Source: Gemmataceae bacterium (GTDB lineage: Bacteria; Planctomycetota; Planctomycetia; Gemmatales; Gemmataceae). From it: 64,000 nt of DNA. Each line of letters starts with the position of its first letter. The stretch's first letter is position 1. The stretch spans positions 1 to 64,000 of the forward strand of contig JAIEMG010000008.1 of NCBI GenBank assembly GCA_019752375.1, read 5' to 3'. The position numbers and the translations under genes are program-made. The notes under the pieces are model-generated. The model searched no databases. It worked only from the letters and a program-made list of their open reading frames with translations, and was not told the DNA's origin. Shown here in pieces: positions 16,065 through 62,981 of this stretch.

Positions 16065-16232
16065 GTCTGCTCGATTTTCGTTGCGCGTTTGTCTTGTTTC
16101 CCCACCGGCGAATCGAACAGGCTGCGCCACAGCGGTGGCACAAGTTGTTCGATTGTGTCCACCTTCGCGGGGTTTCCATCGAACCCGACAGTGTTAATTC
16201 ACCAGTCCTAGCTAGGCTTGGACTTAGGGTTC

Positions 16233-16288
16233 GGCTGGCACAGCCGGCCCTACATGAAGCTTTATCTGTAGGGCCGGCTGTGCCGGCC
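16233..16288. repeat. GGCCGGC-family inverted repeat
   Basis: The 22-bp arms (16233-16254 and 16267-16288) differ at one position. The core is GGCACAGCCGGCCCTAC, and it recurs at 17633, 23934, 43670 and 62897. It lies between two convergent genes and could act as a terminator for both. Confidence 0.8.
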
Positions 16289-16327
16289 ACACCGCCAGCA
16301 AGCTCCATTTCGAGACTTGACGGAGCG

Positions 16328-17386: not shown

Positions 17387-17989
17387 CGGGTGAGTTCTCG
17401 CGAGGGTCATCGACAGTGGAAGAGGCACGATGCCGGACGCATGATAACGGCGCGCCCGGCGGGAGGAAATGAATTTGCGGCAGCCTCGAGCCGCGAACTC
17501 GGGTCGAGGAACTGTATCGACTCGGTCGTTCGAGGCCCTGTCGTTTCGTGGACCGCCTATCGCGGCCCGGATCATATCTGAGAGTCTGTCCAATAAGGGG
17601 CAGGCACGCTCCATAGCCCCCGATTTCACGGAGGTTGCGGCCGGCACAGCCGGCCCTACAGGAAACGAGGCCGGTTGCGACGAAATTTTCCGGTCGTAGC
17701 CGAGGCTGCCCTCCGATTTCAGCCTCACGCCCGGCGGACTCCACAATCTAGTCCATGCCGCGGCAACTCACGACCGGATGTCATCAGGTTAACCGCGCGC
17801 CGCCCACCGCGCCGGAACTCGGCCCGGTGCTGAACCTGCCCATGCGAGGAAGTTGTTCGGCCGTCGGCGGGCGACAATTTGCCAAGGTGCTTGCATTGTC
17901 GGGTTTGCAGCGTTTAGTCTACAACGACCGGGCGCGACTCCCGAAACGGCCCGTGGATAGGCAAATCCCACCACGATGAAGGACTGGAC
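17387..17989. other. Intergenic with a decayed repeat element
   Basis: This gap of about 600 bp between divergent genes has no supportable gene. From about 17607 it holds a degraded relative of the MITE at 23900: GCTCCATAGC, then CCCGATTTCACGGAGG, then one GGCCGGC arm (17633-17660). The right half is not preserved. Confidence 0.5.
17633..17660. repeat. GGCCGGC-family repeat, single arm
   Basis: This is a half copy of the arm seen at 23930 and 62897, including the flanking GGTTGCGGCC. The opposite arm is missing; in its place the sequence reads AGGCCGGTTGCGACG. Confidence 0.6.
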
Positions 17990-23207: not shown

Positions 23208-23786
23208 ATGTCGAAGATCAGGTGCGTCCATTGCGGCTCCGAAAACGATCCAAATGAATGCGCTGGCTATTGCGACGAATGCGGAAAGAAACTCGGAACC
23301 GTCCACTATCGCCCATCACTCTCGAGTCCCGTGTCATCCGCCAAGACTGGGAAGGGGAGGGGCAGAAACATATTATGGCTCTTCTTTATCATTCTGCCCC
23401 TCGTTGGGATCGCCGTCGGTATTTGGATGACGACCAACCACGTGTCATTCGCGGCTCAGGCAAGCCGAGCGGATGGCGTCGTCGTGCACAGCTTCCAACC
23501 GACGCGACGCTCGCTCCATCAGGTAACTGTCCGGTTCGTGGCGAACAATAGGTCCATCGAGTTTACGGACCATGTCTATACTTCACACAGCCCTGGTGAT
23601 CGACTTGCGGTTCTCTATCGTCCGGAAAATCCGGAACAAGCGCGGATCAAGTACGATGGTCTCTGGGAGGAGTATAAGCTCTCCTTCATGAGTATCGGCG
23701 GTGGCATTCTATTCTTGCTCGTGATTCTGAATTACTGGCGCAAGGACGTATCCCAGGAGTCGGAGGAGGGTGAAATGCTTCCATAG
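23208..23786 (+). CDS. Membrane protein with zinc ribbon and DUF3592-like domain
   Basis: The protein has 192 residues. It starts MSKIRCVHCGSEND, and CVHC and CDEC form a zinc-ribbon pair within the first 30 residues. Two membrane helices (ILWLFFIILPLVGIAVGIW and SIGGGILFLLVILNYW) flank a loop with TVRFVANNRSIEFTDHVYTS and GDRLAVLYRPENPEQARI. That loop is the DUF3592 pattern. Function is unknown. The start is chosen from GGTGGAG upstream of the ATG at 23208. GC content is lower than in neighbours, which hints at transfer. Confidence 0.7.
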   Translation: MSKIRCVHCGSENDPNECAGYCDECGKKLGTVHYRPSLSSPVSSAKTGKGRGRNILWLFFIILPLVGIAVGIWMTTNHVSFAAQASRADGVVVHSFQPTRRSLHQVTVRFVANNRSIEFTDHVYTSHSPGDRLAVLYRPENPEQARIKYDGLWEEYKLSFMSIGGGILFLLVILNYWRKDVSQESEEGEMLP

Positions 23787-23899
23787 GACTGGGGCTGCTT
23801 GAACTTGGAGCATCCCGGCATCGCCCCAGTCTGCAACCTGGACTGCTTGCCCGCCCTCCGCGATTGCCGAGACCGAGGGACCATGGACGGCGTCGGGAT

Positions 23900-24031
23900 T
23901 GCTCTGTAGAAAACCCCGATTTCGCGGAGGTTGCGGCCGGCACGGCCGGCCCTACAGGCCTACGTTTTTGTAGGGCCGGCTGTGCCGGCCACAACCGTAC
24001 GGTGCCTCAAAGCCTGGTTTTCTACAGAGCA
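23900..24031. mobile_element. MITE, 132 bp, 16-bp TIRs, 9-bp target duplication
   Basis: Terminal inverted repeats TGCTCTGTAGAAAACC (23900-23915) and its exact complement (24016-24031) enclose an inner GGCCGGC-family hairpin. The 9-bp sequence CGTCGGGAT flanks the element on both sides (23891-23899 and 24032-24040). There is no coding capacity, so it must have been moved by a transposase supplied elsewhere. Confidence 0.85.
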
Positions 24032-24040
24032 CGTCGGGAT

Positions 24041-24442: not shown

Positions 24443-26557
24443 TTAGTGGACCGCAGGACTCTTGGTGAGCGTCGACAAGAGGGAGCGCAATTCATCCAGA
24501 TCAATTGGCTTGACCAAATGAGCATCGAATCCGGCTTCCTCCGATCGCTGTCGGTCGCTGTCTTGGCCGTAGCCAGTGATCGCTGCAATAAGCGCGTGCT
24601 TGAGACCGGGGTCTTGACGAAGCTGGCGCGCGACCTCGATGCCGCTCATGCCCGGCAAGCCAATATCCAGCAGGACCACCTCCGGCTGAAAAGCCTGGGC
24701 GAGCCGTATGGCCGAATTGCCGTCGTGCGCCATCCGCACATCGTGCCCGGATAGTTTTAGCACCATGGCGAGCGTTTCCGCGGAATCTTCGTTGTCGTCC
24801 ACCACGAGGACTCGACGGTTGGATTTCCATGATAGAGGTGCACCATTCGGCATGAGCCGGCTTGTTTCCGGCTGCTCGACCGGCAATGCGGGCAGTCGAA
24901 CGACAAACTCGCTGCCGTGGCCAGGACCGGCACTGAGCGCCTCGACCGAGCCGCCGTGAAGACTGACCAGGCTACGGACCAGCGTCAAACCGATGCCCAA
25001 GCCACCCTCGGAGCGGTCCAAGGAGCGGTCCGCCTGCATGAACAGGTCGAAGACATAGGGGAGCATGTCCGCCGGGATTCCGACCCCGGTGTCTCGAACA
25101 CGAATAACGATTTCGCCCGCCTCACGACAACAACTCAGCCAAATTGTCCCGCTTTCAGGGGTATACTTGGCGGCGTTGTTGAGGAGGTTTCCAAGTACTT
25201 GGCCGAGCCGTGTGGAGTCCGCTTCGAGCCACAGCGGATCCGCGGGCAATGCAAGACGAAGCTCATGTTTGCGCGCGTCGATCAGGGGCCGACTGGTCTC
25301 GACGGCACGGGCGATTACGGACGCCAATTCAACGCGTTCCTTGTGGAAGTTGATCTTGCCTCGCGTGATCCGCGACACGTCGAGAAGATCGTCCACCAGC
25401 CGTGTCAGCTGCGCGACCTGCCGCACAATCACCTCACGTGCCCATCGGTGTTCTGGCTCCGTGGCCCCGGCAAAATGCAGGACGGCCATCGCATTGCGGA
25501 TTGGGGCGAGTGGGTTCCGCAACTCATGCGCCAGCATCGCCAGGAATTCGTCCTTGCGTTTGTCCGCGACGGCCAGCGACTCGGCACGGCTGCGCAATTC
25601 GCGCTCCAGGCGCTTGCGTTCGGCCGCCATGCCCAGCACATTGGCAAAAGCCTGAAGAAATTGAACGTCGTCGGAGGTGAACTCGCGTCCCTCAACCGAA
25701 TAGACACCGAATACGCCCAGCGAATTACCGCTGTCCGACACCTTGGCCACGACTCCGCTGCGAATGCCGACAGTCTTGAGATTGGTCTGCGGCTCAAAGC
25801 GCGCTTCGCTGATGAAGTCCAGAATGACGACAGGTTCGGAGGCGCGCAGCACATACTCTGCCTGGGAACCTGGATCGACGGCGATGTCTGTCACGGTCAC
25901 GAAGCCTGACATCCCGGCTTGCGCCTGGAGGGCGAGTCGGCCGCGAGCAAGCAGTTCCCGCAGTTCGCCGTAGTCCGCGCCAAGCGCCTTTACGGCGAGC
26001 TTCACGGCTTCGTTCGCCAAGACGGAGAATTCAGCACCGCCCAGTGCCATCTGACTCAGGTCGGCGACCGCGGTCTGCTGTCGGGCGCGTGTCCTTAATT
26101 CGGTCTCGGCGCCTACCCGCTCCGTCACATCCTCGATCAACGTGATGGTGCCGGCGACGCCCTCCTCGCTTGTGATCGGTACGATCCGCACGCTCTGGTG
26201 CATCGTTGGCGCGTCGCCGCTGCTCGACGGCAACGCGATCAGATGCCCGTGCAAGCGCTGGGAAAGCACAATGGTTTGGCCTGTCAGCGCCTGCCGATAG
26301 CATTGCTCCAAACGTCCAGTGACCAATTCCGGGAACAATTCCAGGAGGTTGCGGCCAATGACCTGTTCGGCACGGAGACCGCTGTTGATTTCCAACCAGC
26401 GGCTCCAGCCAGTAATGGTCATCCGCGCGTCCGTCGTCAGAATGCCCCAGTCGGTGACCTGGTGCAGTCCGCGCAGGATCGCCTCGGTCAGTGCCAGCGG
26501 TTCACCCTCGATCGATTGGCCCATGGGTACCCCGCAAACTGTGGGCGCAAATGACAT
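24443..26557 (-). CDS. Hybrid sensor histidine kinase (PAS-GAF-HisKA-HATPase-REC)
   Basis: The protein has 704 residues without membrane segments. It has a PAS domain at about 25-150, a GAF domain at about 165-315 and a HisKA domain with H344 in MLAHELRNPLAP. The ATPase region contains GNLLNNAAKYTPES and GGLGIGLTLVRSL. A C-terminal receiver carries VLVVDDNEDS and LLDIGLPGMSG. It is the last gene of the chemosensory operon, starting 6 bp after cheC. It could link cytosolic redox or ligand sensing to that pathway, or be a co-transcribed neighbour. Met1 lacks a ribosome site, which fits translational coupling. Confidence 0.9.
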   Translation of the reverse strand: MSFAPTVCGVPMGQSIEGEPLALTEAILRGLHQVTDWGILTTDARMTITGWSRWLEINSGLRAEQVIGRNLLELFPELVTGRLEQCYRQALTGQTIVLSQRLHGHLIALPSSSGDAPTMHQSVRIVPITSEEGVAGTITLIEDVTERVGAETELRTRARQQTAVADLSQMALGGAEFSVLANEAVKLAVKALGADYGELRELLARGRLALQAQAGMSGFVTVTDIAVDPGSQAEYVLRASEPVVILDFISEARFEPQTNLKTVGIRSGVVAKVSDSGNSLGVFGVYSVEGREFTSDDVQFLQAFANVLGMAAERKRLERELRSRAESLAVADKRKDEFLAMLAHELRNPLAPIRNAMAVLHFAGATEPEHRWAREVIVRQVAQLTRLVDDLLDVSRITRGKINFHKERVELASVIARAVETSRPLIDARKHELRLALPADPLWLEADSTRLGQVLGNLLNNAAKYTPESGTIWLSCCREAGEIVIRVRDTGVGIPADMLPYVFDLFMQADRSLDRSEGGLGIGLTLVRSLVSLHGGSVEALSAGPGHGSEFVVRLPALPVEQPETSRLMPNGAPLSWKSNRRVLVVDDNEDSAETLAMVLKLSGHDVRMAHDGNSAIRLAQAFQPEVVLLDIGLPGMSGIEVARQLRQDPGLKHALIAAITGYGQDSDRQRSEEAGFDAHLVKPIDLDELRSLLSTLTKSPAVH

Positions 26558-43656: not shown

Positions 43657-43669
43657 TCGACGAGGATTC

Positions 43670-43725
43670 GGCCGGCACAGCCGGCCCTCCATGGGGCTCA
43701 CATTGTAGGGCCGGCTGTGCCGGCC
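43670..43725. repeat. GGCCGGC-family inverted repeat
   Basis: The arms (19 bp, 43670-43688 and 43707-43725) are perfect, with an 18-nt loop. The copy starts 14 bp after the methyltransferase stop. It lacks the outer TIRs seen at 23900. Confidence 0.8.
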
Positions 43726-43846
43726 GCACTTCTACTAACCCCATTTCCAGCTTGGACACAACGCACCGACTTGAATTTCAAACGGCATTGATCGCGATGG
43801 GTTCCCAACCGTCGAAGCGCCGCACCGGGTGTGTTAAGATTCATTC

Positions 43847-48345: not shown

Positions 48346-48562
48346 GACCGAATCTGCTGCTATGAAAATAGGCGACACCTCTAAGCTTCCGTCCACCGAA
48401 TGCAGCCCATTTTCACGAACTCAGGGTGCCGCGCCGGCATGAAGACTCTGTAGAAAATGTACTATTCCGGCGAGCGGGGCGTGTGAATGCCCCGGTTTTG
48501 CCACCTTAACCGGGGCGTTCACACGCCCCGCTCGCCAGGCTTTCTACAAAGCAGACCGAATC
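48346..48562. mobile_element. Degraded MITE-like element with 9-bp flanking direct repeat
   Basis: GACCGAATC occurs at 48346-48354 and 48554-48562. Between them lie a decayed left end (TGCTGCTATGAAAA), an internal CTCTGTAGAAAA (48446), a long inner inverted repeat (CGAGCGGGGCGTGTGAA against its near-complement from about 48514), and a right end TTTCTACAAAGCA. The right end matches the TIR of the MITE at 23900. The element fills most of the gap between mfnE and the CitG-like gene. Confidence 0.55.
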
Positions 48563-62866: not shown

Positions 62867-62981
62867 TGCTCTATAGACAACCCTGATTTGACGACTGTTG
62901 CGGCCGGCACAGCCGGCCCTACTTGTAGGGCCGGCTGTGCCGGCCGCAACCGTATCTCAACGCGCGGTTTTCTTCGGCGCA
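62867..62981. mobile_element. MITE-like element, degraded relative of 23900
   Basis: The left end TGCTCTATAGACAACC matches the 23900 TIR at 14 of 16 bases; the right end GGTTTTCTTCGGCGCA matches at 13 of 16. Between them is a perfect 26-bp GGCCGGC-family hairpin (62897-62922, 62925-62950). No clear target duplication remains. Confidence 0.65.

Follow-up and report, generated by a model that had tools for sequence, protein, structure and literature searches.

The 132-bp element at 23900–24031 of the window (the whole 64,000-nt stretch of Gemmataceae DNA analysed here) is a genuine MITE, with 16-bp TIRs and a 9-bp target-site duplication (TSD), both perfect. It is most probably (about 85%) a non-autonomous element mobilised by an IS5-family DDE transposase acting in trans, with a passenger REPIN inside it and a palindromic target. 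The span given for it in the initial annotation, 23891–24040, consists of the 132-bp element plus the 9-bp copies of its duplication. Its parts, the genes on either side and the related copies in the window are as follows.

Ends at 23786: DUF3592 protein gene, converging on the gap that holds the element
23891–23899, no strand: left copy of the target-site duplication, 9 bp, CGTCGGGAT
23900–23915, plus strand: left TIR, TGCTCTGTAGAAAACC, an IS5-type end identical to the ends of the Paludisphaera borealis insertion sequence
23916–23930, no strand: left subterminal arm, CCGATTTCGCGGAGG, which type-A siblings also have just inward of this TIR
23931–23994, no strand: tail-to-tail pair of GTAG-type REPs, a REPIN-like hairpin, with GTAGGGCCGGC..GCCGGC on both strands
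24016–24031, minus strand: right TIR, exact reverse complement of the left TIR
24032–24040, no strand: right copy of the target-site duplication, CGTCGGGAT
Ends at 24443: hybrid histidine kinase gene, on the opposite strand to the DUF3592 gene
17618–17675, no strand: truncated element of the window element's subtype, lacking its TIRs
48444–48553, no strand: degenerate relative, its ends resembling the TIRs (4 and 1 mismatches) and its interior formed by another palindrome, GGCGAGCGGGGCGTGTGAACGCC
62867–62981, no strand: degenerate sibling belonging to the window element's subtype; 2 and 3 mismatches in its TIRs, TSD absent

The perfect 16-base TIRs, the 9-bp duplication and the GGCCGGC-family inner hairpin that had been annotated are all present at these positions, the hairpin being the GTAG-type REP pair. 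A scan of the whole window found no second case of a perfect 16-bp inverted repeat with perfect 9-bp direct-repeat flanks, and none occurred in 20 dinucleotide shuffles of the window. The element is short and non-coding between its paired TIRs, with no transposase gene inside.

Many related copies are scattered through the genome, which is known from an 8.46-Mb assembly (391 contigs, completeness 92) that is evidently a bin from a metagenome. The genome-wide TIR search suggested in the initial annotation gave 148 matches at three or fewer mismatches, versus 11 for a control in which the pattern was read backwards, so other copies do exist. Ends were paired on sites fetched from the pattern searches, with nearly all listed sites included; this gave at least 47 paired elements, 75–349 bp long. 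Among the 47 pairs listed, the 9-bp flanks are identical in 17 and differ by a single mismatch in nine (26/47 with at most one), agreement that any one copy would reach by chance with a probability of about 1 in 10,000. In another 21 cases a TIR end faces the end of its contig at a distance of 43–152 bp; the assembly therefore breaks within elements, and more copies exist than were counted. Families of this kind can thus also break assemblies. The GGCCGGC subtype was confined to this genome in a search of other genomes of the family, and a DNA search against plasmids found no match to the window element.

The length of the duplication had been proposed as a clue to the family of the element, and it does point to an insertion sequence (IS) of the IS5 family whose 16-bp ends are the same. 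Among 58 other genomes searched, one, that of Paludisphaera borealis, a member of the class, has these ends at a spacing of ~970 bp; the IS is found there both on plasmid NZ_CP019083.1 and on the chromosome. Its seven full copies range from 959 to 971 bp, and four of the seven have perfect 9-bp duplications. Their open frame is about 306 aa long; it matches both Pfam DDE_Tnp_1 (PF01609, 60.6 bits) and NCBIfam transpos_IS5_2 (NF033579, 148.9 bits, cut-off 140), and contains YGQRWQVETVNSMLK, presumably the Y(2)R(3)E(6)K signature of IS4/IS5-type transposases. Of 398 genomes of the class, 42 contain relatives. Where the ends of these could be read, the termini are (T/G)GCTCTGT(A/T/C)GAAAACC-like, and in many cases the 9-bp duplications are perfect. 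Another planctomycete MAG (contigs JAFAHT, equated with G135 on the basis of coinciding end positions) has a 78%-identical transposase together with 131-bp MITEs that carry exactly the same TIR. The IS903-like subgroup (GGCTTTGT-type ends, about 1 kb, 9-bp TSD) is a candidate placement that fits in length, TSD and TIR resemblance, but the named annotated relatives are the haloarchaeal ISHla2/ISHxa2. Judged by sequence, the ends and duplication of the window element are those of an IS5-family insertion sequence.

The P. borealis IS and the window element have identical 16-bp TIRs and a 9-bp TSD in common. They differ in that the IS is autonomous (971 bp, with its transposase of about 306 aa), and subterminal similarity is absent; the idea that the MITE arose from a known IS through internal deletion was rejected, the shared sequence being the TIR only. 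In the proposed mechanism, an IS5-family DDE transposase would recognise 16-bp ends of the form (T/G)GCTCTGT(A/T/C)GAAAACC and cut the target with a 9-bp stagger, and the element would be mobilised as a TIR-to-TIR unit by transposase acting in trans, presumably in this organism as well. A similar pair is found in Acinetobacter, where the 113-bp MITEAba12 has 16-bp TIRs in common with ISAba12, a roughly 1-kb IS with a DDE transposase, and a 9-bp TSD, and where identity to the IS is likewise confined to the TIRs (PMC6382973). The MITEAba12 TIR, GGCTTTGTTGCACAAA, resembles the (G/T)GCTCTGTTGAAAACC variants of the family described here. However, ISAba12 co-resides with MITEAba12, whereas no such IS was found in the window's genome; no trend in TSD sequence was seen for MITEAba12, whereas the present family has a strong target preference; and the interiors here are several different REPIN-like palindromes.

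A matching transposase had been expected in the same genome, but none was found in the 92%-complete MAG by protein search or with PF01609 (Pfam) or NF033579 (NCBIfam); this result does not amount to absence from the genome, since multicopy IS are often lost from fragmented MAGs. The DDE_Tnp_1 genes present were rejected as partners. The only intact-looking one, an IS5-family IS of about 0.9 kb (L139:1456-2364), has unrelated ends, AGAGCGCCTAAAAAAA, and the remaining DDE_Tnp_1 genes have no matching TIR nearby. If an IS of ~970 bp with TGCTYTGTAGAAAACC ends occurs in the species, the MITE/IS pair would be complete.

A variant compatible with the preferred explanation is that the family is a relic, its transposase lost from the lineage and its copies immobile. 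This is possible, at somewhat worse than even odds. The failure to find a transposase in the 92%-complete assembly points that way, as do the many copies with decayed ends or flanks and the closest sibling of the window element, which is only 94% identical; against it, several copies retain perfect TIRs and TSDs, and with 21 contig ends inside elements the assembly could have missed a multicopy IS. The recent movement proposed for the window element receives a similarly mixed answer: its perfect TIRs and TSD fit, but with the nearest sibling at 94% no recent burst of the subtype is visible.

Whether or not the family is still active, its copies have arrived by insertion. The main landing site is a second dispersed family, palindrome R (AGAGTCTGTCCGAAAAGGGGTCAGGCACCGTTG ... 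CAACGGTGCCTGACCCCTTTTCGGACAGACTCT), about 69–91 bp long (for example L191:1490-1580), with 60 half-sites found genome-wide; many MITE copies occupy one R arm. The copy at C229 reads GGTCAGGCA-element-GGTCAGGCA, and removing the element and one GGTCAGGCA restores an R with 96% identity to an uninterrupted copy of R, which is direct evidence for insertion with 9-bp duplication. Such empty-site paralogues, together with the many copies and their 9-bp duplications, bear out the identification of the window element as a MITE. Both arms of a single R are sometimes occupied (C52, C21). In a few copies the 9-bp flanks are inverted instead of direct, e.g., GGTCAGGCA ... TGCCTGACC, and these may have arisen by an extra step, recombination between elements in both arms of one R. 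For the window copy, a joined-flank search for the empty site in 94 other genomes of the family found no homologous locus, only weak pieces of 31–67 bp.

Insertion favours AAnG-(9 bp)-CnTT. At 14 insertion sites outside R, half-sites have A at position -5 in 23/28 cases, A at -4 in 22/28 and G at -2 in 21/28 (binomial p against window composition, 4e-13, 7e-12 and 3e-6, respectively). IS and MITE sites in other genomes have similar A-rich positions -5 and -4; the window site itself is without the strong A/T flanks. R (AAAAGGGGTCAGGCACC) fits the target preference, which accounts for its frequent use. In the proposed mechanism, the target of insertion would be a palindrome of roughly the form A A N G N (9 bp) N C N T T, regenerated each time, so that the favoured GGTCAGGCA in the R arms would gather arrays with exact 9-bp spacers. 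Arrays with such spacers are found at C5:23162-23646 (three consecutive elements) and C10:49705-49943 (two). Rebuilding of a favoured 9-bp target at each insertion would be a simple reason for the nesting and arrays of palindromes in this genome.

TTAATGGCATTCGGGTCGGGAG is a further repeated target sequence hosting several insertions, seen in the L014 and L041 flanks (..CTCCCGACCCGAATGCCATTAAC..). Two closed genomes of another family also have the ends TGCTCTGTAGAAAACC (L067:453-3561 in G050; L072 and L070 in G054), with AAAGGTGTCAGGAA-like flanks, again the GTCAGG target, and with remnants of broken transposases within or next to them.

The inner hairpin of the window element has arms at 23929–23956 and 23969–23996 with 93% complementarity, and the folding energy of the whole strand is -93.8 kcal/mol (z = -13). 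A hairpin this stable, located in a 656-bp gap between two convergent genes, might be read as a fixed or selected regulatory palindrome (a terminator or RNA-processing hairpin), the window copy serving as a bidirectional terminator. This is quite unlikely as an account of the family, since insertion is evident from dispersed copies that differ in TSD, from nested insertions and from empty-site paralogues; termination may be a secondary role of the window copy. An Rfam scan of the element's region matched no family.

The interior of the window element, at 23931–23994, is an inverted, hairpin-forming pair of GTAG-tagged REPs (for the class definition, see PMC3733652), and the same pair, of the GGCCGGC type, occurs free of TIRs in the window at 16229–16292 and 43666–43729. 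Siblings with the same ends have other interiors, here assigned to classes by reading the sequences. Type B, with GGCGAGCCGGGAGCGTGAGCGACCGG, accounts for eight of the pairs listed, and type C with its variants, marked by CCCTCGTTACCGGGC, for 18; GGCGAGCGGGGCGTGTGAACGCC is found in two, in one case combined with a type-A half. Types A and C have in common the TIR and a similar stretch of ~15 bp (CTGNTTTCACGGAGG), after which the interiors diverge; the type-C subterminal arm, CTGGTTTCACGGAGG, resembles the CCGATTTCGCGGAGG of the window element. From this pattern, the interior seems to have been exchanged within a conserved frame. The type-B GGCGAGCCGGGAGCGTGAGCGACCGG palindrome pairs also flank a gene for a 191-aa Y1 transposase at C330 (L198:1157-1985), in what looks like a RAYT arrangement. 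No RAYT flanked by type-A REPs, the type of the window element, was found in the genome.

That the whole unit is itself a REPIN moved by a RAYT, with the TGCTCTGTAG ends as the outer part of the REP palindrome, would suit the REP pair inside and the RAYT-type genes of the genome, one of them flanked by type-B REPINs, but is highly improbable and largely refuted by the 9-bp target duplications, a DDE-transposase signature, and by the IS5-family gene that the same ends bound in other genomes; moreover, REP pairs exist without these ends, and unrelated interiors have the same ends.

For a MITE moved in trans by an IS5-family transposase, the interior would be a passenger REPIN rather than a deleted transposase gene. 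With several REPIN-like palindrome families in one frame, a REPIN could be spread either by its own RAYT or by the IS5-type ends, and RAYTs presumably moved REPINs into or out of the frame. A tentative extension of this is an element with two engines, in which the REPIN within an IS5-type frame would be exchanged again and again through RAYT-driven insertion, and the resulting families would spread in their DDE-transposon shell and then nest at regenerated 9-bp targets. REPINs are attributed to RAYTs (PMC3116915), usually to these alone, and an IS5-type transposase is a likely second vehicle for them.

Known REPINs and GTAG REPs with RAYTs resemble the present case in the inverted GTAG REP pair and in the existence of free copies (PMC3116915, PMC3733652), as well as in the RAYT-like gene flanked here by another interior type, type B. 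The difference is that the REPIN here is enclosed by IS5-type ends with a 9-bp TSD. GTAG-15 of A. variabilis is similar in that a REP dimer is regularly set in a longer palindromic frame, but no IS link was reported for that frame, whereas the one here consists of IS5-type TIRs (PMC3733652). In Porphyromonas gingivalis, another class of repeat is likewise reported to form the interior of a MITE (PMC4596501); there it is a tandem minisatellite, and here interchangeable REPINs. The open literature searched contained neither a case in which one IS5-type frame, with a defined target, holds several families of REPIN-like palindromes nor a named Planctomycetes MITE of this kind.

The longer type-C elements have further palindromes nested in the loop. 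Three of them, at L020:1501-1728, L058:274-565 and L016:1168-1516, contain the long palindrome GACAGCTGAAAAAGTC..GACTTTTTCAGC and consist of at least three palindrome layers.
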